Assembly (NCBI GenBank): GCA_022340465.1
Contig: JAJDNW010000022.1
Span: 1 to 64,000 of the forward strand
Length of the DNA stretch: 64,000 bases
Direction: 5' to 3'
Source: Deltaproteobacteria bacterium
GTDB lineage: Bacteria; Desulfobacterota; Desulfobacteria; Desulfobacterales; B30-G6
Part shown: one piece after another, positions 37,262 through 63,288 of the stretch
Position numbering within the stretch: the stretch's first letter is position 1
Layout: every line of letters begins with the position of its first letter
The notes under the pieces: model-generated
What the model was told of the DNA's origin: nothing
Databases searched by the model: none
The model's input: only the letters and a program-made list of their open reading frames with translations
Translations under genes and position numbers: made by a program

Positions 37262-37490
37262 CGCACACTCCTGAAAAGTTATTGTCAATGCGGTTGAAAG
37301 CCGATCAGTACTGAATTAAATCAGCAATGCGGCCAAGATTCAATATTAAAATCAAAAAATTGTTTCGATTCTGTCCACTCCGTGCTAAAAAAGAAAATAT
37401 GTCACCACTTCCAACGGGGTCTTAAACAATCAGTATAACATATAGAAATAAATTTTTAAATTGATCATTTCGTCGCAGCTGCATGGACCG

Positions 37491-38834
37491 ATGATATTCC
37501 TCCGCAATAGAAAAGGCTATGATTTAAACCTTTCCGGGAAGCCATCGCCGCAGGTATCGGTGAGAGATATACCTGAATTTGTTGCGCTTACGCCGGAAAA
37601 GATACCTTTTGTCAAACCAAGGCTGAAGGTGAAAGAGGGCACTCGGGTTCGCATCGGGTCCCTGGTGTTCGAAGACAAGCGCAATCCGGCCATTCGATTT
37701 TTGTCCCCCGGTTGCGGCCGTGTGTCCGAGATTGCCTTCGGCCCCCGCCGGGTTATCAGGAAAGTGGTCGTGCAATTGGACGGAGAAGAACGGCACGAAT
37801 CATTTTCAAGCTACTCCGAGCCGCAACTGGCGGAGGTGTCGCGAACGGAGCTGGTGGAGGCCATCCTCCAGGGGGGGCTGTGGTGCCTTTTAAAAAAGCT
37901 TCCTTTCGGAGATATTCCGGACCCGCAGGAGGTGCCTCCGGTCATCATCGTGAGCCTCGATTCCCGAGAACCTTTTCAACCCAATCCGGCGGTTTACCTG
38001 AAGGGCAAGGAAGATTTACTGGCTTTCGGCATCCGCATTCTTGAAAAATTATGCCCGTCGGTACAGGTTTCGATCCACAAGGAGAACGAGGCGCTTGCCG
38101 CGGGGCTGAATGGAATGCTGACCCACTGTGTGAGCGGGCCGTATCCGGCCGGCGATGCCGGGGTGCTGCATTATCGCATCAAAAACAGCCCGGATGACAA
38201 CCGGGCCTGGTGCATCAAGGGGCAGGACGTTTTACTGCTGGCCGAATTGATCGGGACGGGAACGTATCCGACCGACAGAACCGTGGTGCTAGGCGGCAGC
38301 CGGGCTCCGCAACAGCTGCACGTGAAAACGCGCATGGGGGCACCGCTGGCCTATATTGCCGGAAATTCAAGCCGGGAATCCGGACGCAACCGCTACATCG
38401 TCGGCGGACTTTTTAAAGGGTACACGGCTGACAAGGACTCGTTTCTGGACTTGTACGCCACGTCCCTCACCATCCTTCCCGAGGGCGATGACAAGGTGTT
38501 TTTGGGCTTTATCCGGCCGGGGCTGCACCAGCCCAGCCGCTCCCGGACATTTCTCTCGAGTCTCAAAACGTCGCCCTTTACGGTGGATTGCGGAATGCAC
38601 GGTGAGGAGCGGGCCTGTATCAACTGCGGCTACTGTGACGATGTCTGCGCAGTGGATATCCTGCCCCAGTTTACCTTGAAGTGCACGCTCGCAGGGGAGG
38701 TGGAGGATTCCCTGGCACACGGACTGCTGGACTGCGTAGAGTGCGGCCTGTGCACCTTTGTGTGCCCATCAAAGATCGATATCTGTGCCGCACTGAAATC
38801 GGCAAAGGCCGGGTATTACAAAGAGATCGGCTGA
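37491..38834 (+). CDS. nqrA: Na+-translocating NADH:quinone reductase subunit A with two [4Fe-4S] motifs
   Basis: 447 residues from ATG 37491, chosen because 'MIFLRNRKGYDLNLSGKPSPQV' aligns with other NqrA starts; TTG 37461 is the alternative. The body matches NqrA ('IPFVKPRLKVKEGTRVRIGSLVFEDKRNPAIRFLSPGCG', 'LIGTGTYPTDRTVVLGG'). The C-terminus carries two full ferredoxin motifs: C376, C379, C382, C386 (CINCGYCDDVC) and C415, C418, C421, C425 (CVECGLCTFVC), as in RnfC. In Vibrio NqrA these positions are mostly non-Cys. TATAAC at 37434-37439 could be the -10. First of six nqr genes, then 57 bp to nqrB. Confidence 0.93.
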   Translation: MIFLRNRKGYDLNLSGKPSPQVSVRDIPEFVALTPEKIPFVKPRLKVKEGTRVRIGSLVFEDKRNPAIRFLSPGCGRVSEIAFGPRRVIRKVVVQLDGEERHESFSSYSEPQLAEVSRTELVEAILQGGLWCLLKKLPFGDIPDPQEVPPVIIVSLDSREPFQPNPAVYLKGKEDLLAFGIRILEKLCPSVQVSIHKENEALAAGLNGMLTHCVSGPYPAGDAGVLHYRIKNSPDDNRAWCIKGQDVLLLAELIGTGTYPTDRTVVLGGSRAPQQLHVKTRMGAPLAYIAGNSSRESGRNRYIVGGLFKGYTADKDSFLDLYATSLTILPEGDDKVFLGFIRPGLHQPSRSRTFLSSLKTSPFTVDCGMHGEERACINCGYCDDVCAVDILPQFTLKCTLAGEVEDSLAHGLLDCVECGLCTFVCPSKIDICAALKSAKAGYYKEIG

Positions 38835-38891: not shown

Positions 38892-40076
38892 ATGAAGCTG
38901 ATAGCTGACATTTTTGAAAAAAGCCGCCCCCTGTTCGAGGAGGAAGGTAAGCTGGCCAGATGGTTCCCGCTGTTTGAAGCCACGGAATCCTTTTTTTTTA
39001 TTCCAGGCCTGACAACCAAAAGAGATGCCCACGTGCGGGACAGCCTGGATGTCAAGCGCTTTATGAGTTTTGTCATCCTGGCGTTGCTGCCGCCGTTTCT
39101 TTTCGGTGTCTACAACGCCGGGCATCAGGCGAGCCTGGCATCGGGGTTGAGCCCGGCGCCCATTGCGGTATTCCTGAGAGGGATCTGGATCGTCCTGCCG
39201 CTCGTGATTATTTCATACGGGGTCGGCTTTTTCTGGGAGATCCTGTTTGCCGTGGTCAGAAAGCACCCCATCAGTGAGGGGCTTCTGGTTACCGGTTTGC
39301 TTTTTCCGCTTACCCTGCCGCCGACCATACCGCTGTGGCAGGCAGCCGTGGGCATGTCGTTCGGGGTGGTGATCGGCAAGGAGGTTTTCGGGGGTACCGG
39401 CAGAAACATTCTCAACCCGGCATTGACCGGCAGGGCGTTCCTTTTCTTTGCCTATCCCGGCAACATGTCCGGGGACGCTGTTTGGATGGTCGTGGAAAAG
39501 GCCAAGGCCGGCCTCGCGGACGTTGTCAGCGGCGCCACGCCCCTGGCCATTGCCGGCATCACCGGCCCCCAGGAAAAGATCGAATCCGCTCTCGACGCGG
39601 CCGGGTATCCGTTTATCAAACTGCTCCTGGGGAACTATCCGGGCAGCATCGGGGCGACATCGGCGCTCTTGTGCCTGGCGGGGGCGGTTTTACTGGTGAT
39701 CGTGGGAATCGCCAGCTACCGCATTATCGCCGGAGGGATCCTGGGGGCGCTGGCAACGGGTTTTTTCCTCAATTTCGTTGCCTCGGGAACCGCATCGGCC
39801 TGGTTCACGCTCAATCCTTTTTACCATCTGGTGATGGGCGGATTTGCTTTCGGCATCGCTTACATGGCCACCGATCCGGTGACGGCGCCGGGTATGGACA
39901 AATCCAAATGGGTCTATGGCTTTCTTATCGGCATGCTGACGGTGCTGATAAGGATCTTCAACCCGGCATACCCGGAAGGCATCATGCTGGCCATATTGTT
40001 CATGAACCTTTTTTCACCGCTGTTCGATCATTTAGAAATCAAGATGAAGCTGAAAAAAAGGGTGGTCAATGTCTGA
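38892..40076 (+). CDS. nqrB: Nqr subunit B
   Basis: 394 residues from ATG 38892 after GAGGATAT. Integral membrane flavoprotein; the covalent FMN site 'SGATPL' is at 213-218 (Thr216). 'HPISEGLLVTGLLFPLTLPPTIPLWQAAVGMSFGVVIGKEVFGGTGRNILNPALTGRAFLFFAYP' is the conserved core shared with RnfD. Together with NqrA it forms the quinone-reducing side. Overlaps nqrC by 8 bp. ApbE, needed for FMN attachment, is not in the window. Confidence 0.96.
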   Translation: MKLIADIFEKSRPLFEEEGKLARWFPLFEATESFFFIPGLTTKRDAHVRDSLDVKRFMSFVILALLPPFLFGVYNAGHQASLASGLSPAPIAVFLRGIWIVLPLVIISYGVGFFWEILFAVVRKHPISEGLLVTGLLFPLTLPPTIPLWQAAVGMSFGVVIGKEVFGGTGRNILNPALTGRAFLFFAYPGNMSGDAVWMVVEKAKAGLADVVSGATPLAIAGITGPQEKIESALDAAGYPFIKLLLGNYPGSIGATSALLCLAGAVLLVIVGIASYRIIAGGILGALATGFFLNFVASGTASAWFTLNPFYHLVMGGFAFGIAYMATDPVTAPGMDKSKWVYGFLIGMLTVLIRIFNPAYPEGIMLAILFMNLFSPLFDHLEIKMKLKKRVVNV

Positions 40077-40806
40077 CAACCTCAGGTCCATTTTCTTTGC
40101 CGTCGTCACCGCCCTTGTCTGCAGCCTTCTCCTGACTGCGGCCTACAGCGGTTTGCGGCCTTTCCAGCAGGAAAACATCGAGGTGGACCGCAAGAAGAAC
40201 ATCCTCAAGGCCGTCGGGCTTCTGGAAGAGGGTCATGCTTACAGCCACGATGGGATCAAGGCCATGTATGCCGAGAACATCGTCTGCATGCGGGTGGATG
40301 CCGAAGGGCGTGTAATGGAAAAGGGGGCGGGGGGCGGAAAGGGGCTTCCCATATATCTCTACCGGCGGGATGGCGAGGTGGTGGCCTATGTGGTGCCGAT
40401 CAATACCCGGGGGCTCTGGGGCAAGATTCACGGCTACCTGGCTTTAGAGAGTGACGGGTCCACGGTGTCCGGATTCACGGTTTACCAGCACAACGAAACA
40501 CCCGGGTTGGGGGGCGAGATCGAAAAAGAGTGGTTTCAGAAAAATTTCAAAGGCAAGAAAATTGTCGATCAGCAAGGTCGTTTCGTCTCCATCGGTATTG
40601 CCAAGCCGGCGGCGATCGCCGCTATGGACGCGGCCGAAAAGATCAACTATGTGGACGGCATCAGCGGCGCCACCCTCACGGGGCGCTTTCTGACGGCGGG
40701 GCTCAAGAAGATTCTGAGTGAGTATGAACCGGTTTCCATCCGGTTCCGCAGCAAGGAGATGCTGCGGGTGCCTAAGGGGTCGGCGGCATGCGGGGAGAGT
40801 CAATGA
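40069..40806 (+). CDS. nqrC: Nqr subunit C
   Basis: 245 residues: one N-terminal membrane helix (SIFFAVVTALVCSLLLTAAYSGL), then a periplasmic FMN-binding domain with 'DGISGATLT' (Thr202 as FMN attachment site) and 'HNETPGLGGEI'. The protein is shorter at the end than some relatives but complete. Translationally coupled to nqrB and nqrD. Confidence 0.95.
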   Translation: MSDNLRSIFFAVVTALVCSLLLTAAYSGLRPFQQENIEVDRKKNILKAVGLLEEGHAYSHDGIKAMYAENIVCMRVDAEGRVMEKGAGGGKGLPIYLYRRDGEVVAYVVPINTRGLWGKIHGYLALESDGSTVSGFTVYQHNETPGLGGEIEKEWFQKNFKGKKIVDQQGRFVSIGIAKPAAIAAMDAAEKINYVDGISGATLTGRFLTAGLKKILSEYEPVSIRFRSKEMLRVPKGSAACGESQ

Positions 40807-41420
40807 AGTTAACTCAAACGAAGCATTTCAAGACATTTTCGGAACCGTTGATCCAGAACAACCCTATTTCCATGCAGATGCTGGGAATCTGCTCCGCTCT
40901 GGCGGTGACGGTTCAGATGAAAACCGCTGTGGTGATGGGCCTGTCCCTCACCTTTGTGCTGGCGTTTTCCAACCTGGCCATATCGATCATGCGCCGGGTC
41001 ATTCCACGCAACATCCGTATGATTGTGGAACTGAGCGTGATCGCCACGCTGGTGATCATCGCCGACCAGGTTCTCAGGGCTTTTTTTTACGATATCAGCA
41101 AACAGCTGTCCGTATTCGTGGGGTTGATCATCACCAACTGCATCGTCATGGGGCGGGCGGAAACCTTCGCCCTGGGCAATCCGCCCGGGCTGTCCTTTCT
41201 CGACGGACTGGGCAACGGCGCCGGGTATGGATCGGTTCTGGTTTCCGTGGCCCTCATCCGGGAGACCTTGGGTGCGGGCAAGTTTCTGGGAGTGGCCATT
41301 GTACCGGAATTCGTTTACCGGGCGGGATATGAAAACATGGGATTCATGCAGCTGGCCCCGGCCGCCTTCATCATCATCGGCCTTTTGGTGTGGCTGCAGA
41401 AAACCCTGTCAAAAGAATGA
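40803..41420 (+). CDS. nqrD: Nqr subunit D
   Basis: 205 residues from ATG 40803, overlapping the nqrC stop by 4 bp (ATGA). Six membrane helices; Fe-binding cysteines of the NqrD/E pair in 'LGICSALAV' and 'IITNCIVMG'. '[22 protein letters not shown]' is the family start. Confidence 0.95.
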
Positions 41421-41436: not shown

Positions 41437-42045
41437 ATGGAAGACCTTATAAGCATATTTCTAAATTCCGTTTTTGTGGGCAATATTCTCCTGGCCTATT
41501 TTCTGGGGATGTGCTCCTTCGTGGCTATCTCCAAGAACATGGATACGGCCATCGGGCTGGGGGTCGCCGTGGTGTTCGTTCTGTCCATCACCGCTCCCGT
41601 CAACTGGATCATCTACCGCTTCCTGCTGGCCCCCGGGGCACTTTCCTGGGCCGGGCTGCCCGATGTCGACCTCAGTTTCCTGAAATTCATCACCTTCATT
41701 GCCGTCATTGCGGGCATCGTTCAGGCGGTGGAGATGGTCATCGACCGGTTCTCTCCGGTTCTGTACAATGCCCTGGGTGTGTTTCTGCCGCTTATCACCG
41801 TGAACTGCGCCATTCTCGGGACCAGCCTTTTCATGGTCGAGCGCAATTACAGTTTCACGGAGTCGCTGGTGTTCGGTGTCGGCTCGGGGACCGGCTGGCT
41901 GCTGGCCATCGTCTCCATGTCCGCCATCCGCATAAAACTGCGCTATGCGGATGTTCCGGAGGGCCTTCAGGGCTTCGGCATCACCATGATCGTAACCGGC
42001 CTCATGGCAATGGGTTTTATGCTTTTCAGTGGGATCACCCTATGA
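41437..42045 (+). CDS. nqrE: Nqr subunit E
   Basis: 202 residues from ATG 41437. '[39 protein letters not shown]' and '[25 protein letters not shown]' with the two conserved Cys of the intramembrane Fe site. The -start chosen lies 16 bp after nqrD; longer in-frame versions read through nqrD and are rejected. Confidence 0.95.
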
Positions 42046-43268
42046 TCTATGTCGCCGCCATCATCGTTTTTTCAGGGGTCATCCTGCTGCTTGTGGGCAT
42101 GCTGCTGCTCGTCGAGGCCAGGGTGGTTCGCAAGGGCAACTCGCAGGTGGTCATCAATCAGGATGCGGAAAAACCTCTCAAAATCCCGGTGGGAACCACC
42201 CTGTTGAAGGCCCTGTCCAACAACGACATTTTCATCCCTTCCGCCTGCGGGGGGGGCGGTTCCTGCGGCATGTGCAAGTGCCGGGTCGAAAAAGGGGTGG
42301 AGACCTACCTGCCCACGGAGCTCGTGCATATCAGCAGGAAGGAAAAGCAGGAAAACATCCACCTGGCCTGCCAGCTCAAGGTGAAAGACGACCTGATGAT
42401 CCGGATCCCCGAGGAGATCCTGGACGTCAAAAAATACAACGCCACGGTTATTTCCAACGAGAACGTGGCCACTTTCATCAAGGAACTGGCCATAGAGCTG
42501 GACCCGGGCGAAACCCTCGATTTCAATGCGGGCGCCTACATTCAGATCGACATTCCGGAATACACCCTTTCCTTTGCCGCATTGCGCAAACGGGTGGGGG
42601 CCAAATTCAGGCCGGCATGGGACCGTTTCAACCTGTGGGGATTGAAATCGAAGAACGAGGAGCCGATATTCAGGGCCTATTCACTGGCCAACCCGCCGTC
42701 GGAAAGATCGGTTCTGCGGTTCACCGTCAGGATAGCCACTCCTCCGCCGGGGGCCAAGGCCGTCCCGCCGGGGATGGGCTCGTCATACATCTTCAATCTG
42801 AAGGAAGGCGATCGGGTGACCTTGAGCGGTCCCTACGGCGATTTTTTTGTCAACGACACCGAACGGGAAATGTGCTTCATCGGGGGCGGAGCCGGCATGG
42901 CACCGCTGCGCAGCCAGATCTTGCACCAGCTCAATACCGTGGGCACCAAAAGAAAGCTCACTTTCTGGTACGGCGCGCGGTCACTGCAGGAACTTTTTTT
43001 CGAGGAGGAATTCAGGGCGCTCGAAAAGAAATTTGACAATTTCACCTATTATGTCGCCCTGTCCGACCCCCAGCCGGAGGACAACTGGAAGGGCATGACC
43101 GGGTACATCCATCAGAATCTTCACGATCACTATTTAGCCGACCACGAAGATCCCACCGAGATCGAGTACTATTTGTGCGGCCCCCCCATCATGGTTCAGT
43201 CCATTGAGGATATGCTGGACAGCCTGGGGGTGGAACCGGAGATGATTAAATTCGACAAATTTTCCTGA
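42042..43268 (+). CDS. nqrF: Nqr subunit F, NADH dehydrogenase
   Basis: 408 residues, ATG overlapping the nqrE stop by 4 bp. One membrane helix ([23 protein letters not shown]), [2Fe-2S] ferredoxin domain with C69, C75, C78 and C110 ([14 protein letters not shown] ... LACQ), FAD domain ('[11 protein letters not shown]') and NAD domain ('[16 protein letters not shown]', '[17 protein letters not shown]'). This is the NADH entry point, complete and normal. Confidence 0.96.
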
Positions 43269-43275
43269 CAAGACA

Positions 43276-43608
43276 CTAAAAGGCCATTTTTTCGGGCGGT
43301 CGGCGTTCGGGAACGTATTCCTCGGTGATTTCTCCCCGGTTCCACGCTTCCGAAACGTACAGGTTGCAGTAGCAGCTGCCGAACTCCGCCACATCCGGTT
43401 CGCGATAGACACAGGGGCAGATGATGTCGCGGTCGGCCTCTTTATCGCCGGCGGCCAGACGGCACGGGCAGACCATGTAGCCGTAACGCTCCTTGTTGGT
43501 CAAAAGGGCCTCGAGCAGGTCGAAGACCCGTTCCCGGTCTTTGTTGAAGAAATAGCCTTTAGGCTCCTGAACCTTTTTCAACTTTTCGAACAGCTCTTGA
43601 GCGTCCAT
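43276..43608 (-). CDS. Ferredoxin:thioredoxin reductase catalytic subunit
   Basis: 110 residues, right for FTR beta. All family cysteines are placed: C47, C49 (VCPCR), C64, C66 (CPCVYR), C79, C81 (CYCNLY), which hold the [4Fe-4S] cluster and adjacent redox disulfide. FTR moves single electrons from ferredoxin to a thioredoxin/glutaredoxin disulfide. The gene starts at the same base where the glutaredoxin gene ends, and converges on nqrF with a 7-bp gap. The variable FTR subunit is absent, as usual outside oxygenic phototrophs. Confidence 0.93.
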   Translation of the reverse strand: MDAQELFEKLKKVQEPKGYFFNKDRERVFDLLEALLTNKERYGYMVCPCRLAAGDKEADRDIICPCVYREPDVAEFGSCYCNLYVSEAWNRGEITEEYVPERRPPEKMAF

Positions 43609-44045: not shown

Positions 44046-44134
44046 ATTAGTAATGATTCTTGTTAAGATATCAATAGTAAGATTTTATTACGTTTCCATT
44101 GAACCATAACAATCTTTCCACGAAGGGAGAAAAA

Positions 44135-46108
44135 ATGGAAAAGAAAAAAGTACCATCCAGTAAAAAAGAACTCGATATCAGCCAGGTGACAACCTGTGAT
44201 GCAACCGCGCAAATGCTTCTCAAGGCCAAACGCGACGGTGTCGAAACCGCTTTTGACCGGGCGTTGAACATGAAGGCCTGCCCGATCGGGGCGGACTCGG
44301 CCTGCTGCAAACACTGCGCCATGGGCCCCTGCCGGTTGAACGCCAAAACCCCTTACGACAAGGTCGGGGTCTGCGGGGCCACCATCGACACCATCATGGC
44401 CCGTAATTTTGCCAGGATGGTGGCATCCGGTGCCGCAGCGCATACCGACCACGGCATGAGCATGCTGGACCTGTTCCGCGAGGTGGTCAACGGTAATATT
44501 ACCGATTATGAAATCAAGGACACCATCAAGCTGGAGGCGGTTGCAGAGTCCGTGGGCATCGAGACCGAGGGGAAATCCGTAAAAGAGATCGCCCTGGAGC
44601 TGTATGCCGAACTCGAGCGCACCTATACCCAGGTGGAGGGAGAAATTCCCTTTGCCAAACGCGTTCCCCCCAAAACCCTTGAGATGTGGCGCAAGCACGG
44701 TATTGTTCCGCGTGGGGCGATGCGCGAGATAATGGAACTGATGCACAGGACCCACATGGGGGTGGACCAGCACTATGAAAACATCACCAAACAGTGCAGC
44801 CGGACCGCTCTGGCGGACGGCTGGGGCGGTTCCATGGTGGCCACGGAAATTTCCGACATTCTTTTCGGGACGCCGTCGCCCATCAGCATCGAAGTCAACA
44901 TGGGAGTGCTCAAGGAGGACCAGGTCAACATCATCGTTCACGGCCACGAGCCCAACCTGTTCGAATCCATGATTGCCTCGGTGAACGAGCCGACGCTGCT
45001 GGCGGCCGCCAAAGAAGCCGGCGCCAACGGCATCAACCTGGTGGGCATGTGCTGTTCCGGAGCCGAGGTACTGGTGCGGCACGGCATTCCGCATGCCGGC
45101 AACTTCATGTCCACCGAAGCCATCCTGGTCACCGGAGCAGTGGACGCCATGACCGTCGACGTGCAGTGCATCAAGCAGGGATTGGCCAAGGTGGCCGAGT
45201 GCTACCAGACTCCCTTGATAACCACCAACCCCCGCTGCCACATCGAAGGGGCTCAGCATGTGGAATTTCACGAACACGAGCCCCGCGGCTGTACGGACGA
45301 AATCGTGATCAAGGCCATTACGAGATTCAAAAACCGAAGCGCCGTCATCGAAATCCCCAAGCAGAAAAACGTCGGGGTCCACGGATTCTCCCACGAGTAC
45401 ATCAAGTATATGCTGGGCGGCTCTTTCAGGGGCTCCTACTGGCCGCTGAACGACAACATCATCAACGGAAGAATACGGGGCGTCGCCGGTGTGGTCGGCT
45501 GCACCAATCCCCGGGTCAAACAGGACTATGTCCATGTGGAGCTGGTCAAGGAGCTGATCAAGAACGATGTCCTGGTGCTGCAGACCGGCTGTTCCCAGAT
45601 CGCGCTTTCCAAGGCCGGGCTGACCACGCCGGAAGCCGCCGTTCTGGCGGGAGAGGGGCTGCGGGAGGTCTGTGAAACGGTGGGTATGCCGCCCGTTCTG
45701 GGCATCGGCTCCTGTGTTGACAACAGCCGCATTCTGATCGCCGCATCGGAGATGGTGCGGGTGGGTGGATTGGGCGACAGCATTGCCGATCTGCCGGCGG
45801 CCGGCGCCGCACCGGAGTGGATGAGCGAAAAGGCCATCAGCATCGGTCACTATTTTGTGGCTTCCGGCGTTTACACGGTATTCGGCGTGACGTTTCCCAT
45901 TGTGGAGGAAACCAAATTCCACAAGCTGCTTTTCGGCGGCCTGGAAGAGCAGGGCATGGGCAAGTGGGGCTTCACCCCGGACCCCTACGAGATGGCGAGA
46001 CTGATGATTGCCCACATCGATAAAAAACGGCAGGCGCTGGGCCTCGACAAGGGCAAGGAGCGCGTGCTTATCGATATGGCCGACCGCCGGGCGCTGGACG
46101 CCGCATAA
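44135..46108 (+). CDS. cooS: Anaerobic Ni-carbon monoxide dehydrogenase catalytic subunit
   Basis: 657 residues from ATG 44135 (AGGGAG upstream); an earlier in-frame TTG at 44099 is less likely. N-terminal Fe-S ligands C49, C57, C58, C61, C66 and C80 ('GADSACCKHCAMGPC', 'KVGVCGA') for the B and D clusters. C-cluster region: 'HGHEPNLFESM', 'GINLVGMCCSGAEVLVRHGIPHAGNF', 'VDVQCIKQGL', 'VVGCTNPR', 'QTGCSQIALS', 'GIGSCVDNSR'. Oxidises CO or reduces CO2 with ferredoxin. No ACS, CooF or CooC gene is adjacent, so it is a stand-alone monofunctional enzyme, followed by a terminator. Confidence 0.96.
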   Translation: MEKKKVPSSKKELDISQVTTCDATAQMLLKAKRDGVETAFDRALNMKACPIGADSACCKHCAMGPCRLNAKTPYDKVGVCGATIDTIMARNFARMVASGAAAHTDHGMSMLDLFREVVNGNITDYEIKDTIKLEAVAESVGIETEGKSVKEIALELYAELERTYTQVEGEIPFAKRVPPKTLEMWRKHGIVPRGAMREIMELMHRTHMGVDQHYENITKQCSRTALADGWGGSMVATEISDILFGTPSPISIEVNMGVLKEDQVNIIVHGHEPNLFESMIASVNEPTLLAAAKEAGANGINLVGMCCSGAEVLVRHGIPHAGNFMSTEAILVTGAVDAMTVDVQCIKQGLAKVAECYQTPLITTNPRCHIEGAQHVEFHEHEPRGCTDEIVIKAITRFKNRSAVIEIPKQKNVGVHGFSHEYIKYMLGGSFRGSYWPLNDNIINGRIRGVAGVVGCTNPRVKQDYVHVELVKELIKNDVLVLQTGCSQIALSKAGLTTPEAAVLAGEGLREVCETVGMPPVLGIGSCVDNSRILIAASEMVRVGGLGDSIADLPAAGAAPEWMSEKAISIGHYFVASGVYTVFGVTFPIVEETKFHKLLFGGLEEQGMGKWGFTPDPYEMARLMIAHIDKKRQALGLDKGKERVLIDMADRRALDAA

Positions 46109-56344: not shown

Positions 56345-56457
56345 CGACAACCCCTCAAGGCAGGCCAAAATTATCTCTTGGATATTGGAATTTATGGAAT
56401 TGACATAGGTCGAGGTAATATCTATCTTGAAAAGATATTCCAAACGTGAGGAGATAC

Positions 56458-57897
56458 ATGAAAAGCAACCATCCGGTCTGGAAATTATTCGTGTCGGTAA
56501 AGCTGACCGTTTTCCTGCTGCTCTCCCTGGCCGCAACCTCGGTTATCGGGACGGTTATCAAACAGAATGCCACCCCGGACTATTATTTTCATAAATTCGG
56601 TCCGTTTTTTTCCCGCCTGTTCGATGTGCTGGGCATTTTCGACATGTACCATGCATGGTGGTTTCAGCTGCTGTTGATTTTATTGATCGCCAACGTCGTG
56701 GTCTGCTCCATCGATCGGCTTACGGCAACATGGAAACTGGTTTTTCCTAAAAAGAAAACCTTCAACCCAACCCGCTTTGAAAAGGTTAAAGAAAAGCAAA
56801 CCTTTTCCACAAAACGCCCGCCGAGTGAACTGGAAAACGCGTATTCTTCCTTCGCCGCCAAAAAAATGGGTCGCCCGCAGGTGGAAAAGGCAACGGACGG
56901 TTTCCTCGTCTTTGCGGAAAAATGGCGTTGGACGCGGTTCGGGGTATATATCGTACACTTCAGCGTCATTTTGCTCATCGTGGGCGCCATCATCGGCAAC
57001 CTGTTCGGCTTTAAAGGGTTTGTCACCATACCCGAAGGGGATTCCGTCGATCGGGTTCAGATCAGAAACAGCCGGCGCATGCAGCCGTTGGGATTCACGA
57101 TTCGCTGTGATGATTTCTTTGTCAGTTTTCACGATACCGGGGCTCCCAAGGAGTTTCGTTCCAGCTTGACCATTCTGGAAAATGACAAGCCGGTGATGAC
57201 CAAAGACGTCATCATGAATCACCCCCTTCGATACCGGGGCATCAGCATCTTCCAGTACAGTTACGGGGAAATGGCGCCTGAAAAAATGCCGGGGCATGAC
57301 TTTTCCACCGACGACATTCACTTGAATTTTACCGTCAAATCCTCAGGGATGGTATATAAGCGCAGGGTGGAGATCGGCAAGCCGGTAGAGATCCCTGAAG
57401 GGTTGGGGCGTTTTACCCTGATGGAATTCAGACCTTCGGCCGATTTCAGAGGGCAGAACATCGGGGCGGCACTGGTAGGGGTGCTGACACCGTCGGACGG
57501 AGCGCCGGTGGAGGTGCTTTTGCCGCTGCACTTTCCAAATTTCGATAAAATGAGGCGTGGCGCAGTGGTGATATCCGTGGCCGATCAGAAAAAGGAAACC
57601 TTTTCACCGGCGAAAAAAGAACATATCCGCTACTATACCGGACTGGAGGTGAACAAGGACCCGGGGGTCTGGGTGGTTTACAGCGGATTTGTCATTATGA
57701 TCGTCGGGTGCTTCGTGACTTTTTTCATGTCGCACCAGCAATTCTGCATAAAGGTCACGCGCAGCGAGCACGGCAGCAGCATCGAGGTCATGGGGGTCGC
57801 CAACAAAAACAAGATCGGCATGCAGCGCAAGGTGGCGGCCATCGCCGAGCAACTCAAAAAAAATGAACCGGGTGTTTCAGAAAAAAATAAGGGGTAG
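56458..57897 (+). CDS. resB: Cytochrome c biogenesis protein ResB/Ccs1
   Basis: 479 residues from ATG 56458 with GAGGAG just upstream (a GTG four codons earlier is weaker). N-terminal helix 'VKLTVFLLLSLAATSVIGTVIKQN', 'MYHAWWFQLLLILLIANVVVCSIDRL', third helix 'FGVYIVHFSVILLIVGAIIGNLFGF', long periplasmic domain, and a last helix near the end ('VYSGFVIMIVGCFVTFFMSHQQ'). System II haem ligation to c-type cytochromes, acting with CcsA. Followed by ccsA after 3 bp. Confidence 0.92.
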   Translation: MKSNHPVWKLFVSVKLTVFLLLSLAATSVIGTVIKQNATPDYYFHKFGPFFSRLFDVLGIFDMYHAWWFQLLLILLIANVVVCSIDRLTATWKLVFPKKKTFNPTRFEKVKEKQTFSTKRPPSELENAYSSFAAKKMGRPQVEKATDGFLVFAEKWRWTRFGVYIVHFSVILLIVGAIIGNLFGFKGFVTIPEGDSVDRVQIRNSRRMQPLGFTIRCDDFFVSFHDTGAPKEFRSSLTILENDKPVMTKDVIMNHPLRYRGISIFQYSYGEMAPEKMPGHDFSTDDIHLNFTVKSSGMVYKRRVEIGKPVEIPEGLGRFTLMEFRPSADFRGQNIGAALVGVLTPSDGAPVEVLLPLHFPNFDKMRRGAVVISVADQKKETFSPAKKEHIRYYTGLEVNKDPGVWVVYSGFVIMIVGCFVTFFMSHQQFCIKVTRSEHGSSIEVMGVANKNKIGMQRKVAAIAEQLKKNEPGVSEKNKG

Positions 57898-57900
57898 CCG

Positions 57901-58740
57901 ATGAACAGCTCTCAATTATTGTCCTTTGTCACGTTCGCGTATGGTTTTGCCGCGACGCTGTATATCGTGGCCTGGGTCTTTAAAAAAGCTTCGCCGGCTC
58001 GGATTGCCAAATGGGCCCTCATGATCGGCGCCGTTGCCAATGCCGCCGGATTTTTGCTGCGGTGGAAAGAATCGTATGCCATCGGCTACGGCCATGTGCC
58101 CCTTTCCAACATGTACGAATCCCTGGTCTTTTTCGCCCTGACCATCGGAGCTATCTACCTGTTCATCGAGTTTCGCTATAAAACACCCGTGTTGGGTGCC
58201 TTTGCAACCCCCATCGCTTTTCTGGCCATGGCCTACGCTTCCCTGTCGCCCCACGCCAGTGACAAAATCCAGCCCCTGATTCCCGTTCTGAAAAGCAACT
58301 GGCTGATCGCCCATGTGATGACATGCTTTCTTGGCTACTCGTCCTTTGCCGTGGCTTTCGGCATCAGCCTCATGTACCTGATCAAACACCGGGCGCCGGA
58401 CCGGGAGGGCGGGATTTTGGGACGGCTTCCCGGGTTGAAAGCACTGGACGAGCTTACCCATCAGATGGTCATGTTCGGTTTCCTGTTTCTTTCCGTGGGC
58501 ATCATCACCGGTGCGGTGTGGGCCAATTCCGCCTGGGGCACGTACTGGTCCTGGGACCCCAAGGAGACCTGGTCCCTGATCACCTGGTTTGTCTACGCCA
58601 CGCTGCTGCACGCACGCATGATGCGGGGGTGGTACGGGAAGAAAATAGCCTATCTGTCTATTATCGGATTCGGCGCTGTGATGTTTACCTATTTCGGCGT
58701 CAATTTCCTACCCGGGTTGCACAGCTACGGGTCCATGTAG
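57901..58740 (+). CDS. ccsA: Cytochrome c biogenesis protein CcsA/ResC
   Basis: 279 residues, eight membrane helices. Haem-handling motif 'WGTYWSWDPKETWSLITWF' (WWD-type) and conserved His residues ('HVPLSNMYESLVFF', 'HVMTCFLGYSSFAVAFG', 'LHARMMRGW'). Together with ResB forms the haem exporter/synthetase. Location straight before rnfC suggests that a c-type cytochrome is linked to the Rnf function. Confidence 0.93.
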   Translation: MNSSQLLSFVTFAYGFAATLYIVAWVFKKASPARIAKWALMIGAVANAAGFLLRWKESYAIGYGHVPLSNMYESLVFFALTIGAIYLFIEFRYKTPVLGAFATPIAFLAMAYASLSPHASDKIQPLIPVLKSNWLIAHVMTCFLGYSSFAVAFGISLMYLIKHRAPDREGGILGRLPGLKALDELTHQMVMFGFLFLSVGIITGAVWANSAWGTYWSWDPKETWSLITWFVYATLLHARMMRGWYGKKIAYLSIIGFGAVMFTYFGVNFLPGLHSYGSM

Positions 58741-58908
58741 CCCCAAGCGCTTCATACGGAACACCTTAATCTCAGGTTTTTGCAGCACTGAGGTTAAAAA
58801 TGACAATTTTCGCCACAAACGCTTGCTTTTTTGGGGGGCATTGGGTAAAGGCTGACACGTTTTTTCGAGACGATCGAATATCAGCCAGTTTTACCAGGAG
58901 TGTTAACG

Positions 58909-60297
58909 ATGCCCAAGTTCCGCAGGGCCTACAAATCGAACAAGGAGATCGGCTGGTTTCCGGGCAACGGAACCTTCGACCGGGGCGTGCATCCTCCCGA
59001 ACGCAAAACGTTCTCCGGTGACGCCGCCATAGAGATCGTACCCACCCCGGAAAAAGTGGTTTTACCCCTGCTGCAGCACATTGGGGGCCCCTGCACCCCC
59101 GTGGTCAAGCCCAAGCAGGAGGTCCTTTTCGGTGACAGGGTCGGCAAGGGGGAGGCTTTTGTTTCGGCTTCTCTGCATGCGCCGTTGAACGGGATCGTCC
59201 AGAAAATGGAGGTGGCCACCCTGGCCAACGGGAGGCACGTGCAGGCCATTGCCATTCGAAGCCACGGAGAGCAGACTTCCGGCCAGGACCTGTGGGACCA
59301 GATGTACGGAGGCAAGTGGCCCCAGAAAACATACCAGGCCATGGATCCGGAAAAAATCAGTGCGGCCATTCACGACGCGGGTATTGTCGGACTCGGCGGT
59401 GCGGCTTTTCCCACGCATGTTAAAATCTCTCCGAATGAAAAAAAACCCATCCACACGCTGATCGTCAACGGGTGCGAGTGCGAACCGTATCTGACCACGG
59501 ATTACCGGTTGATGGTGGAAGCGCCGGAAGCGATCGTGGCCGGGGCCATGCTTGCACTGCGTGCGGTGGGTGCCAAGAAAGCCTACATCGGCGTCGAGGA
59601 CAACAAGGTGGAGGCCATTGCATCCCTGCGACGGACAGCCGCCGGTGCAGGGATCAATATTGCCATCTTGAAAACGAAATATCCACAGGGCAGCGAAAAG
59701 CACCTGATCAAGGCGGTCCTGAACCGCGAAGTCCCTCTGGGCGGCCTTCCCTCGGATATAGGGGTCGCCATGACCAATGTCGCCACGGTCACATCCATTG
59801 CCCGGGCGGTCATGCGGCGTATACCGCTGACGCATCGGGTTGTCAGTGTCACCGGCGGCGGCATTGCCCAGCCAAAAAACCTGCTGGTTCCCATCGGCAT
59901 ATCCATGGGGGCTTTGATCGAATTCTGCGGCGGCCTGCGTAAAACAGCCGCCAGGATGGTGGCCGGAGGCCCCATGATGGGCTTCTCCTTCAGCAACCTG
60001 AATATGCCCGTCACCAAAGGCACGAGCGGCATCACGGTGCTGACCCACGCCGAAATCCGCCGGGTGGATCAAACGGTTTGCATCCGGTGCGGCCGGTGTG
60101 TGGATGTGTGTCCCATGAATCTGGTGCCCACCAAGCTGGCCATGGCTTCCCGCCTGCAGGAACTGAACGTGGCACGGACCTATAATATTATGGCATGCTT
60201 CGAGTGCGGTTCCTGTGCCCATATTTGTCCTGCAGGCCTGCCGTTGGTGCAGCTTATCCGCACCGGTAAAGCCATGTTGGCGAAAGAGGCAGCGTAG
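58909..60297 (+). CDS. rnfC: Rnf complex subunit C
   Basis: 462 residues from ATG 58909 with AGGAG at 58896-58900. 'GLGGAAFPTHVKISP', 'LIVNGCECEPYLTTDYRLM', then two C-terminal [4Fe-4S] motifs 'CIRCGRCVDVCPMNLVP' and 'CFECGSCAHICPAGLPLVQ'. Lacks the long C-terminal repeats of E. coli RsxC. NADH/NAD binding site of the Rnf ion pump. First gene of the rnf operon; separated from ccsA by 168 bp that includes TTAATCTCAG/CTGAGGTTAA, a possible terminator or leader hairpin. Confidence 0.95.
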   Translation: MPKFRRAYKSNKEIGWFPGNGTFDRGVHPPERKTFSGDAAIEIVPTPEKVVLPLLQHIGGPCTPVVKPKQEVLFGDRVGKGEAFVSASLHAPLNGIVQKMEVATLANGRHVQAIAIRSHGEQTSGQDLWDQMYGGKWPQKTYQAMDPEKISAAIHDAGIVGLGGAAFPTHVKISPNEKKPIHTLIVNGCECEPYLTTDYRLMVEAPEAIVAGAMLALRAVGAKKAYIGVEDNKVEAIASLRRTAAGAGINIAILKTKYPQGSEKHLIKAVLNREVPLGGLPSDIGVAMTNVATVTSIARAVMRRIPLTHRVVSVTGGGIAQPKNLLVPIGISMGALIEFCGGLRKTAARMVAGGPMMGFSFSNLNMPVTKGTSGITVLTHAEIRRVDQTVCIRCGRCVDVCPMNLVPTKLAMASRLQELNVARTYNIMACFECGSCAHICPAGLPLVQLIRTGKAMLAKEAA

Positions 60298-60301
60298 CGC
60301 C

Positions 60302-61273
60302 ATGATCGATAAGACAGACACCGCTTCGCCGGAAATTCACGTGGCGCCGTCGCCCCACGTGTCGAACATGGGCATGACGACCCGGGGGATGATGCGCGAT
60401 GTGTTGATCGCCCTCGTTCCCGTAACCGCAGCGGCATTTCTTTTCTTCGGGTGGCTGGCAGCCAAGCAGCTGATAATCTGCCTTGCGGCGTGTCTTGCGG
60501 CCGAAGCCGTTTTTACCCACATGCGGGGAAAACAGTTGTCCTTGACGGACCTGTCCGCCATCGTCACCGGTTGCATTCTGGGGCTTTCCCTGCCGGCAAC
60601 GGCACCCTGGTACGTGGGCTGCATCGGCTCCATCGTGGCTATCGGCATCGGCAAGATCGTGTTCGGCGGGTTGGGCATGAACATTTTCAACCCGGCCATG
60701 GTAGGAAGGGCGTTTGTGATGATCGCCTTTGCCGGCAGCATGGCGGCTTCCGGATATATTCTTCCCGGTGAAAGCGTGGATGTTATTTCTCAGGCAACGC
60801 CTCTGACGGCTTTCAAGCAGTCCGGTATGGTGATGCCGCTGGCGTCACTGGTTCTGGGTAGCGTCAACGGCTCTCTCGGTGAAACCAGCGTGGTGGCGTG
60901 TCTTTTGGGCGGCATCTATCTTTGTTGGCGCCGTGCGGCGGCCTGGGAAATACCGGCCGGCATTTTGACGAGCGTGTTGGTTCTCGCCGGGATAGTGAAC
61001 CTGGTCAACCTGACGTCCGACTGGACGGTCCTGCATCAGATGGCCAGCGGGTCCCTGCTGTTCGGCGCTTTTTTCATTGCGACCGATCCGGTCACGAGCC
61101 CGCTTACCGCGAGGGGCCGGTGGATTTACGGAGTCGGCATCGGCGCGGTGATCATGCTGCTGCGTCTGTTTTCCGGTTATCCCGAAGGTGTCATGTTTGC
61201 GGTACTGCTGATGAACGCGCTTACGCCCCTGATCAACCGGTGGAACATACCACGGCCCTTCGGAGGTGCATAA
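60302..61273 (+). CDS. rnfD: Rnf complex subunit D
   Basis: 323 residues from ATG 60302. Membrane flavoprotein; the FMN site appears as 'ISQATPL' (SQAT in place of SGAT). 'GMNIFNPAMVGRAFVMIAFAGSMAASGYILP' and 'FFIATDPVTSPLTARGRWIYG' are conserved with NqrB. Starts 4 bases after rnfC. Confidence 0.94.
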   Translation: MIDKTDTASPEIHVAPSPHVSNMGMTTRGMMRDVLIALVPVTAAAFLFFGWLAAKQLIICLAACLAAEAVFTHMRGKQLSLTDLSAIVTGCILGLSLPATAPWYVGCIGSIVAIGIGKIVFGGLGMNIFNPAMVGRAFVMIAFAGSMAASGYILPGESVDVISQATPLTAFKQSGMVMPLASLVLGSVNGSLGETSVVACLLGGIYLCWRRAAAWEIPAGILTSVLVLAGIVNLVNLTSDWTVLHQMASGSLLFGAFFIATDPVTSPLTARGRWIYGVGIGAVIMLLRLFSGYPEGVMFAVLLMNALTPLINRWNIPRPFGGA

Positions 61274-61957
61274 GTGACGCAGGCGCAGACATCGGAAAAC
61301 GGTAAAATGCCGGCCCCGAGGAAAGGCGGACATCTTTTCCAGGCCTGGCTGGTGTTGCTGCTTGCGGTTATTTTCGGTGCATGTTTATCAGCCGTGCATG
61401 TCAGCCTGAGCGGCAGGATTTCCGATAACAAGCTGAACGAAAGCCTGGAAAAGATTCCCGAACTGATCTGGGGCGGTATGGAGCAAGGCGCCCCTCCTGA
61501 CCAAGCGTCGATAGATATCGCCCCGGGGAGGATAGCGGTAACCAGTGGCCAACGCACGACCTACTATCCTGTTTTCCGGGTGAATGCAGAAGGGGCACTG
61601 GCAGGATGGGTGCTCAAGGCCGCCGGGCAGGGGTATGCCGGGAAAGTCGAGCTTCTCCTGGGGCTGAATCCGGCCGGAGACAAGATTACCGGGCTGTTCG
61701 TACTGGGGCAGTCGGAAACGCCGGGACTGGGCAACAAGATAAGCTCCCCCGAATGGCTGGCCCAGTTTGCAGGGCAGCGGACGGCCGCTCCCCTGAAAGT
61801 GGTAAAGGGCGGCGAGCCCGCGCCGGGGGTTATCGATGCCATAACCGGGGCCACGATCTCATCGCGAAGCGTGACCGGCATCGTCAACCGGGCCATCGGG
61901 GAAACGCGGGGCCTCCTCACCCCCGAACAGATGAAGCTCACTGAAAGGTCGCAATGA
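61274..61957 (+). CDS. rnfG: Rnf complex subunit G
   Basis: 227 residues from a GTG immediately after the rnfD stop. N-terminal membrane helix (AWLVLLLAVIFGACLSAVHVSLSG), FMN-binding domain with 'SETPGLGNKI' and covalent flavin site 'ITGATISSRSV'. Overlaps rnfE by 4 bp. Confidence 0.94.
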   Translation: MTQAQTSENGKMPAPRKGGHLFQAWLVLLLAVIFGACLSAVHVSLSGRISDNKLNESLEKIPELIWGGMEQGAPPDQASIDIAPGRIAVTSGQRTTYYPVFRVNAEGALAGWVLKAAGQGYAGKVELLLGLNPAGDKITGLFVLGQSETPGLGNKISSPEWLAQFAGQRTAAPLKVVKGGEPAPGVIDAITGATISSRSVTGIVNRAIGETRGLLTPEQMKLTERSQ

Positions 61958-62580
61958 TGGCAAACCTTCCAACCCCAATGGAGCGGTTCGTGCAGGGCAT
62001 ACTGCCCGAAAACCCGGTATATCGTCAGTTTCTGGGGCTCTGCCCCACACTGGCGGTGACCAACGGGCTGAAGCAGGCCATGACCATGGCCCTGGCGGTG
62101 GGCGTCGTCCTGCTGTGCGCCAACACCATCGTCAGCCTGATTCGCAACCTGTTGAAGCCGCACCTGCGCATCGTCGTTTTTACCCTGACCATCGCTACCT
62201 TTGTCACCGTCGTGGACCGGGTGCTGGCAGCCTACATGTACCAGATGAGCAAGACACTGGGTCCCTACATCCCGCTGATCATCGTAAACTGTATCATCAT
62301 CTGCCGCTGTGAAGTGTGTGCTTCGCGGCAGTCAGTGGGCACCGCCGCGGCGGACGCCATCGGGCAATCCATCGGATTCGGGCTTGCCCTTGCCAGCATC
62401 GCCACGGTGCGGGAAATCCTGGGGACCGGCACGCTGGCCGGTTTTCAGGTGATGCCGGACAGCTGGCCGGCCTGGGTGGTGATGGTGCTGCCGCCCGGGG
62501 CTTTTATGACCTTCGGCCTGCTGGTGGCCCTGGTCAACTGGATCGACAGCATCCGTCGTAAAAGCGAGAGGAGGGGATAG
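61954..62580 (+). CDS. rnfE: Rnf complex subunit E
   Basis: 208 residues; ATG 61954 overlaps the rnfG stop (or the next ATG, 61957). Six helices, 'FLGLCPTLAVTNG' and 'LIIVNCIIICRCE' hold the intramembrane Fe-S cysteines. Longer linkers at C-terminus ('KSERRG'). Confidence 0.94.
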   Translation: MMANLPTPMERFVQGILPENPVYRQFLGLCPTLAVTNGLKQAMTMALAVGVVLLCANTIVSLIRNLLKPHLRIVVFTLTIATFVTVVDRVLAAYMYQMSKTLGPYIPLIIVNCIIICRCEVCASRQSVGTAAADAIGQSIGFGLALASIATVREILGTGTLAGFQVMPDSWPAWVVMVLPPGAFMTFGLLVALVNWIDSIRRKSERRG

Positions 62581-62583
62581 GCC

Positions 62584-63288
62584 ATGGATTATTTGTTCGA
62601 CATCCTGCTGATTTCCCTGAGCGCGGCGTTGATAAACAATTTCGTACTCTACTATTTTGTGGGTATCTGCCCTTTTATCGGCGTGTCCAGGCAGGTGGGC
62701 ATGGCCGTGGGCATGGGAAGTGCGGTCACCTTTGTCATGACGGTGGCGGTATTCCTGAGCTGGTCGATCACCACGCTCATTCTGGTGCCGGGAGCACCCC
62801 TCTCCAGCTGGGTGGCGGGATTTTTCCTGCCGGCAGAGCAGGCAGCCGCTATCGATATGACCATTCTGACCTACATTGTTTATATATTTTCCATTGCCTC
62901 CTCGGTGCAGTTCGTGGAGATGTATGTGCGCAAGTTCTATCCGTCGCTGTACAAGACCTTCGGTGTGTTCCTGCCGCTGATTACCACCAACTGCGCCATT
63001 TTGTTCGCCTGCCTGACCGTGATGAGCAACATCGTCGGCGTTGAGAATCCGGAGGAGGCCTGGGATTTGGGGCGCGCGCTGGCCCTGGGATTTTTCGGCG
63101 GAGTCGGGTTCACCATTGCCATCGTAATCATGGCGGGAATACGCGAGGAACTCGATATGTGCGATGTCCCCAAGGTTTTCCGGGGAACGGCCATTACCCT
63201 CATCGTGGGGGGAATACTGGCCATGGCCTTCATGGGGTTCACCGGGGTCGACAGCGGCATCCGGGTGGCGGTGACCGGTGCCCCGTGA
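62584..63288 (+). CDS. rnfA: Rnf complex subunit A with an extra loop
   Basis: 234 residues against about 190 for most RnfA. '[34 protein letters not shown]' and '[16 protein letters not shown]' keep both Cys of the cluster. The added length is a loop after the third helix ('[25 protein letters not shown]'), similar to the loop in NqrE, a longer '[10 protein letters not shown]' region and a C-terminal tail. The loop would lie on one membrane face and may contact another subunit. Confidence 0.93.

Follow-up and report, generated by a model that had tools for sequence, protein, structure and literature searches.

Does the NqrA subunit of the Na+-pumping NADH:quinone oxidoreductase (Na+-NQR) ever have a place for iron–sulphur clusters? 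Going by the relevant passages of the literature, it does not. A section of a 2025 review has NqrA without a redox cofactor and an origin of NQR in Bacteroidota (PMC12174285), and a 2025 Rnf paper, where it touches on the matter, has the NqrA cofactors as lost (PMC11889175). The published view, as set out in portions of that review and of a 2014 study of NQR origin (PMC4014512), is that NqrA shed its clusters after the loss of RnfB, and that NQR came from Bacteroidota or Chlorobi. The same portion of the 2014 study reports the loss of the NqrA cysteines and has some Desulfobacteraceae as ‘anomalous’ early branches, and makes no mention there of the cysteines of these. Genome papers on sulphate reducers name Nqr in the passages concerned and leave clusters uncommented (PMC2702500, PMC4046663, PMC5109826, PMC11887813). 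The question is raised afresh by an operon in a 64,000-nucleotide stretch of DNA from a Deltaproteobacteria bacterium, the whole of which is here called the window. Its features are as follows.

37491 to 38834, forward strand: nqrA, 447 residues from the ATG at 37491 (457 from an alternative in-frame start, TTG at 37461); NqrA with a C-terminal domain of the RnfC two-[4Fe-4S] type
38616 to 38648, forward strand: first cysteine motif of nqrA, CINCGYCDDVC, residues 376-386 counted from the ATG and 386-396 from the TTG
38733 to 38765, forward strand: second cysteine motif of nqrA, CVECGLCTFVC, residues 415-425 from the ATG and 425-435 from the TTG
38892 to 40076, forward strand: nqrB, TIGR01937 471.2 bits (cut-off 349.9)
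40069 to 40806, forward strand: nqrC, TIGR01938 181.3 bits (cut-off 144), with an SGAT flavin-attachment motif
40788 to 41420, forward strand: nqrD, TIGR01939 281.2 bits (cut-off 244.85)
41437 to 42045, forward strand: nqrE, TIGR01940 309.3 bits (cut-off 247.55)
42042 to 43268, forward strand: nqrF, TIGR01941 556.1 bits (cut-off 295), with [2Fe-2S], FAD and NAD domains

The operon is thus a complete nqrABCDEF in the canonical order, nqrA first. NqrB to NqrF each exceed their NCBIfam equivalog cut-off and NqrA is the only subunit below, its scores being 284.3 bits against 321.05 for TIGR01936 and 422.7 against 450 for NF003761; at its C-terminal end the RnfC model scores 78.0 bits (best over 382-452), and Pfam 4Fe-4S dicluster domains are recognised as well. 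The input module is NqrF, in place of RnfB, and has the Pfam domains Fer2, FAD_binding_6 and NAD_binding_1. The flavin-attachment threonine (SGAT) is in both NqrB and NqrC, and NqrD and NqrE have two cysteines each where the ligands of the D/E [2Fe-2S] cluster are expected. ApbE was found in the window genome; a search of that genome for NqrM gave no match, as did its control. With the Vibrio cholerae Na+-NQR (PDB 8a1u, 7xk3, 8acw) the complex shares the six genes, their order and the NqrA fold. However, V. cholerae NqrA is described, in the review section already cited (PMC12174285), as cofactor-free, whereas that of the window has eight ligand cysteines, and the complex is therefore classed as a variant of Na+-NQR and not as a plain member.

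How far can these cysteines be trusted as ligands? The best PDB match of the window NqrA is V. cholerae NqrA (E 1.5e-57, residues 9-445 in the TTG numbering), and Clostridium tetanomorphum RnfC matches it mainly at 381-451, gap-free, with eight of eight cysteines falling on RnfC cysteines. In an alignment of 83 window-type NqrA, 2 of a deeper type to which we return, 12 canonical NqrA and 16 RnfC, all eight are present in 16/16 RnfC, in both deeper-type rows and in 83/83 window-type rows, the last count being biased as the patterns by which 80 of these 83 were retrieved contain first-motif cysteines. In the same alignment the window NqrA has eight further cysteines, and these are variable. In the 12 canonical rows, taken from plasmid records, the only route to other phyla, and from genomes of the window's own phylum, Met, Ile, Tyr, Leu and other non-Cys residues occupy the first six ligand positions, and Cys is found at the last two in 9 rows. 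In V. cholerae NqrA all that is left of the region is CTFVC, the other six ligands being gone, and three Bacteroidota rows have, on our reading of the alignment, none of the eight. A preliminary description of the window had pointed to both motifs, at residues 376-386 and 415-425, and had described Vibrio-type NqrA as lacking most of the cysteines save a CTFVC-like remnant; the numbering is correct for the ATG start at 37491, and the V. cholerae alignment bears out the description. Besides the cysteines, few residues are common to the eight-cysteine, deeper-type and RNF rows and missing from the canonical ones (two rows, L157 and L177, were omitted from this comparison). The eight-cysteine feature is real and conserved beyond chance; the ligand set is well supported, and most likely it binds two [4Fe-4S] clusters.

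The modelled structure points the same way. A full-length model of the window NqrA (pLDDT 80.7) gave Z scores of 41.3-41.9 against the four listed entries for the V. cholerae complex, and of 26.7-27.9 against RnfC. Because confidence in its C-terminal domain was low (pLDDT about 42-67), the domain was modelled separately (pLDDT 79.0, pTM 0.67), and is then closest to the RnfC ferredoxin domains at Z 7.8-8.5, values near 8 being moderate by the tool's own note, though none of the other rows reaches the RnfC ones and the sequence alignment is in accord. Next come HdrC-like proteins (4.4-5.5), V. cholerae NqrA (5.1-5.4) and FrdB (4.9-5.1). As modelled, the C-terminal domain has the RnfC ferredoxin fold. 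The likeness to the RnfC of RNF complexes (PDB 7zc6, 9eri, 8ahx) therefore extends to the register of the eight cluster cysteines and the fold of the ferredoxin domain, but not to the FMN site, which RnfC has and the window NqrA is without, nor to electron input, for which RNF uses RnfB and the window complex NqrF. With small changes allowed, the RnfC FMN motif (GMGGATFPTHVK) is present in 12/16 RNF rows and missing from all window-type, deeper-type and canonical NqrA rows; one of the four RNF rows that are without it belongs to a second RNF of the window genome, considered at the end.

Is the window an oddity? A search independent of cysteines, with the whole-length profile TIGR01936 on 58 relatives and 297 genomes of the phylum, yielded 34 NqrA-like loci that were read: 27, the window included, are window-type and all of these have the eight cysteines, 2 are deeper-type and also have them, and 5 are canonical, with the set missing. 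NF003761 was also run on 194 genomes of the window's order, a second sample; NqrA was found (E <= 1e-30) in 88 of them, all of which were read, and the eight-cysteine form is present in 84. One of the 84 (G519) has both forms, a canonical one (the pair L220/L221) being there as well; only a canonical C-terminus was found in three (G473, G569 and G005), and one (G556, locus L238) was kept out of the eight-cysteine count as the stretch is partly masked. In G005 there is, besides its canonical NqrA, a fragment with 49% identity to that of the window, which meets a contig edge before the domain (L144, L145). Outside the order, the window type was met in one genome of the phylum sample, G133, whose listed contamination is 8%. 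Scanning named genomes with patterns brought up 152 relatives, and both motifs are in all of the best 80 of these, a count (80/80) subject to the same retrieval bias as above; the titles of the 80 are Desulfobacterales, Desulfobacteraceae, ‘Deltaproteobacteria’ and unspecified bacteria. At 56 of the 80 named loci nqrA to nqrF are together, the remainder having fewer genes and many being cut by contig ends. Complete chromosomes with eight-cysteine NqrA are those of Desulfonema magnum, Desulfosarcina widdelii and D. alkanivorans. The eight-cysteine form is the usual NqrA in this order of sulphate reducers. That it might be the common form across Bacteria, and so no novelty, had been considered in the preliminary description; it is typical of the order and nearly absent elsewhere in the phylum sample, other phyla having been reached via plasmid records only. 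The complex is, as judged from these genomes, an NQR variant with a cluster-ligand-bearing NqrA that is normal in one order of sulphate reducers. Two departures from the full operon may be mentioned. On the Desulfonema magnum chromosome (L077:8001-17332) nqrA, B and C are together and nqrD, E and F do not occur in the next 6 kb, another locus (L071) being similar; and in an early-branching eight-cysteine row (L149, G038:C8) some 3 kb separates nqrA and nqrB.

Does the complex still work with a quinone? The N-terminal quinone-site region of NqrB is present in the window type and RnfD rows are without it in the alignment. The residues E157 and G158 (V. cholerae numbering) are there in 78/78. Where V. 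cholerae NqrB has Gly141 the window has Phe, and the 78 have Phe in 59 cases, Leu in 15, Tyr in 3 and Ser in 1. According to a passage in one structural paper, ubiquinone would be blocked by any side chain at this point (PMC10643135). That Phe, Leu or Tyr at this position signifies loss of the quinone site was considered and dropped: the menaquinone-type NQR of Prevotella (Segatella) bryantii has, like the window, a bulky residue there, a Leu in the model that the relevant part of the publication presents, and uses menaquinone (PMC10739449). A menaquinone-type site in NqrB would be the simplest reading. In the window genome MqnA and MqnD were not found, and MenB-like matches were below cut-off.

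The deeper type just alluded to is a mosaic of Rnf and Nqr. It was found at two loci, L142 (G100:C299) and L143 (G135:C106), in the only two genomes of their class in the collection and, among 395 genomes of the phylum, the only two with a match to the mosaic NqrA at E <= 1e-60. Both are drafts and L142 ends before nqrF. An RNF-like core is there combined with NqrF and an eight-cysteine A subunit. The A subunits are nearer RnfC (236.1 and 221.2 bits, against a cut-off of 245.95) than NqrA (114.4 and 97.0), and both have the eight cysteines and a broken FMN motif. At L143 the C subunit is nearer RnfG (95.0 versus 63.6), D and E score much the same either way, B scores higher as NqrB (329.5 bits) than as RnfD (282.9, itself above the RnfD cut-off), and F is above the NqrF cut-off (311.0 against 295). 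No RnfB-like ORF was seen on either mosaic contig. NqrF and an FMN-less, eight-cysteine NqrA are thus common to the mosaic and the window complex, but the mosaic core is nearer RNF or even, and its A subunit nearer RnfC. It would appear that an RNF core has here acquired NqrF, which makes the mosaic look like a stage before the complex of the window.

What, then, is the place of the eight-cysteine form in the descent of NQR from RNF? A tree of joined NqrB, D and E, rooted on RNF, was made with 53 rows and again with 50, after removal of three long branches (L157, L177 and L159) that were also left out of the trees of NqrB only, the NqrA N-terminal part and the ferredoxin domain. The trees took 23 window-type rows, and the alignments A3 and A2 held 77/81 and 42/81 possible rows, respectively. 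After RNF the deeper type branches off, and then the window's clade (support 100/98 with 53 rows and 100/99 with 50) and the canonical clade (93/88 and 93/87) are sisters. On that order, retention of the eight cysteines with a single loss in the canonical line is one change. A tree with Bacteroidota first, which the AU test did not reject (p 0.26), would entail two, either a double loss or one loss with a regain. In the NqrB-only tree Bacteroidota do branch off ahead of the window's clade, to which the remaining canonical rows are adjacent, while the NqrA N-terminal tree has the window's clade (99/96) apart from the canonical one (96/87), two rows being misplaced with respect to the RNF root. 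Retention of the cluster ligands with one loss in the canonical line is favoured, not proven. The eight-cysteine NqrA would then look like the ancestral form, a living step between the older pump and NQR. The preliminary description had ventured that this might be an intermediate form. That idea gains from the retention of the RnfC ligands, the loss of the FMN motif and the position of B, D and E between the RNF-like mosaic and canonical NQR; it loses from the alternative placement, in which the window type is sister to part of the canonical line.

Could the domain instead have come straight from RnfC, whether in the annotation or in evolution? That the protein is a misnamed RnfC, or the whole an assembly artefact, is hardly credible. 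The C-terminal domain is indeed of RnfC type and the carriers are mostly metagenome assemblies, but misnaming is ruled out by the near end-to-end alignment with NqrA and by nqrB to nqrF downstream, and artefact by the same arrangement in the complete chromosomes of Desulfosarcina widdelii and D. alkanivorans. A regain, in which a canonical NqrA recombined with RnfC, deserves more attention, although it too is very unlikely. RNF operons do exist in the same genomes, the order in the NqrB-only tree would suit a regain, and the AU test leaves standing a union of the ferredoxin part with RnfC (p 0.157, 67 columns). Yet with the cysteine columns taken away, the tree of the ferredoxin part groups it with canonical NqrA (97/93) and not with RnfC. 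Also against a regain, its identity over 76 positions is 28% to the RnfC of the window itself and 36% to that on contig 14 of the same genome, compared with 31-33% to two canonical forms; it is 36% to one deeper-type row. The B, D and E tree, moreover, makes retention the single-change history.

If the ligands were retained, what are they for? The neighbourhood is one place to look. Around 81 loci, 67 of them with more than 1.5 kb upstream and 45 downstream, no conserved partner gene is fused to the operon or inside it. Recurrent neighbours are an upstream gene of about 390 residues (38 loci), a gene of about 150 residues (23), an FtrB-like gene (15) and a CODH-like one (10). From its ORF we take the first, as it occurs in the window, to resemble citrate synthase, and the second is presumably Fur-like. 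No RnfB-like ORF stands beside the window operon; among 85 loci there is one, a two-motif ORF at a locus edge. After nqrF, the window has:

43276 to 43608, reverse strand: FtrB-like ferredoxin-thioredoxin reductase chain
44099 to 46108, forward strand: CO dehydrogenase catalytic subunit

NqrF being intact and RnfB-like ORFs absent save for that edge case, NADH is the likely main electron donor of the complex.

The proposal that follows starts from the ligands and their strict conservation, the modelled RnfC-like fold of the domain, the lost FMN motif, the intact B to F subunits and, with the uncertainty given above, the branching order. On balance we think it probable that the complex is a Na+-pumping NADH:quinone oxidoreductase with an ancestral, cluster-bearing NqrA, whose clusters would be a second cytoplasmic redox port, operating in either direction. 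Electrons from NADH would enter at NqrF and pass by the D/E cluster and the flavins of C and B to the riboflavin of NqrB, with Na+ as the presumed coupling ion and a quinone as the presumed acceptor. If assembled and redox active, two [4Fe-4S] clusters in NqrA would occupy the same place as in RnfC, close enough to that riboflavin for electron transfer. From the pertinent parts of two structural papers, the riboflavin of RnfD is 11.7 Å from the nearer RnfC cluster (PMC9588780), and that of NqrB is 11.6 Å from the bound quinone (PMC10643135). The FMN/NAD(H) site that RnfC has would be missing from NqrA. The clusters may form a one-electron cytoplasmic port beside the quinone site of NqrB, in exchange with a soluble carrier, and the riboflavin would have two neighbours to which to give, or from which to take, electrons. 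In RnfC it is FMN that makes the hydride step to NAD+; with FMN absent no such step is expected in NqrA, and the partner should be a one-electron carrier. Should the port be genuine, it and the mosaic together would order the passage from RNF to NQR, with gain of NqrF and loss of FMN first, and loss of the clusters last and in the canonical line only.

What tells against a port is that we know of no outlet for NqrA clusters in the absence of FMN. They might then be bound and yet purely structural, holding the C-terminal domain of NqrA to NqrB, with electrons going from riboflavin to quinone as in Vibrio. The missing FMN, the want of a known partner and the kept quinone region of NqrB would all fit, and canonical NqrA is itself held, in the review section cited, to be structural (PMC12174285); even so we regard this as unlikely, if a serious contender. 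Canonical NqrA keeps its fold with the ligands replaced, so the fold does not need clusters, and the keeping of all eight ligands in each of the 83 rows, retrieval bias and all, argues for redox use. A specific form of the port, overlapping with it, is input from reduced ferredoxin through the NqrA clusters to riboflavin and on to quinone, which would make the complex a ferredoxin:quinone oxidoreductase as well; use of ferredoxin-type electrons in addition to NADH was the other idea of the preliminary description. RnfC-type cluster sites beside riboflavin would suit such a route, as would the nearness of CODH at 10/81 loci and of FtrB-like genes at 15/81. But these neighbours lie outside the operon, RnfB is absent from it, and at least two RNF complexes are available to ferredoxin in this genome, all of which leaves ferredoxin input rather improbable. 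Equally doubtful, though of wider reach, is a three-way meeting at the riboflavin of NADH (through NqrF), quinone (NqrB) and a ferredoxin-type partner (NqrA), by which one Na+ pump would link three pools in sulphate reducers, possibly with confurcation. To return to the port, it would be a one-electron one whichever the partner and the direction.

To our knowledge, NqrA has no assigned function, and a cluster-bearing NqrA offers a direct route to what this subunit does. The named strains with complete chromosomes, Desulfosarcina widdelii and D. alkanivorans, make the claim testable at the bench. An eight-cysteine NqrA is at odds with the accepted description of the subunit, and as whole operons with NqrF carry the ligands, gain of NqrF did not require their loss; nor does the favoured tree need an origin of NQR in Bacteroidota. 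The sequences of eight-cysteine NqrA are already public. No description of a cluster-bearing NqrA was found in the portions of open-licence full texts that came up, supplements excluded, and an earlier mention elsewhere is possible. Parts of NQR and RNF have been reused in other ways: the section concerned of one survey describes NQR/RNF-like flavinylated systems of Actinobacteria and CPR (PMC8238504). Those, however, are NqrB/RnfD-NqrF fusions with one electron path, in contrast to the six-subunit complex of the window with its cluster-bearing NqrA (PMC8238504).

There remains the RNF of the window genome, of which there are at least two. One operon is in the window itself (58900 to 63288, forward strand):

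58900 to 60297, forward strand: RnfC, FMN motif intact, 503.9 bits to the rnfC model
60305 to 61273, forward strand: RnfD
62584 to 63288, forward strand: RnfA-like ORF

It is preceded by ORFs that we assume to be ResB-like (56446-57897) and CcsA-like (57901-58740). The other is on contig 14 (L150, G000:C14), and its RnfC has the eight cysteines and is without the FMN motif. Going by the passages on Rnf in a paper on Desulfobacteraceae, it is probably the Rnf2 of that family (PMC11887813).
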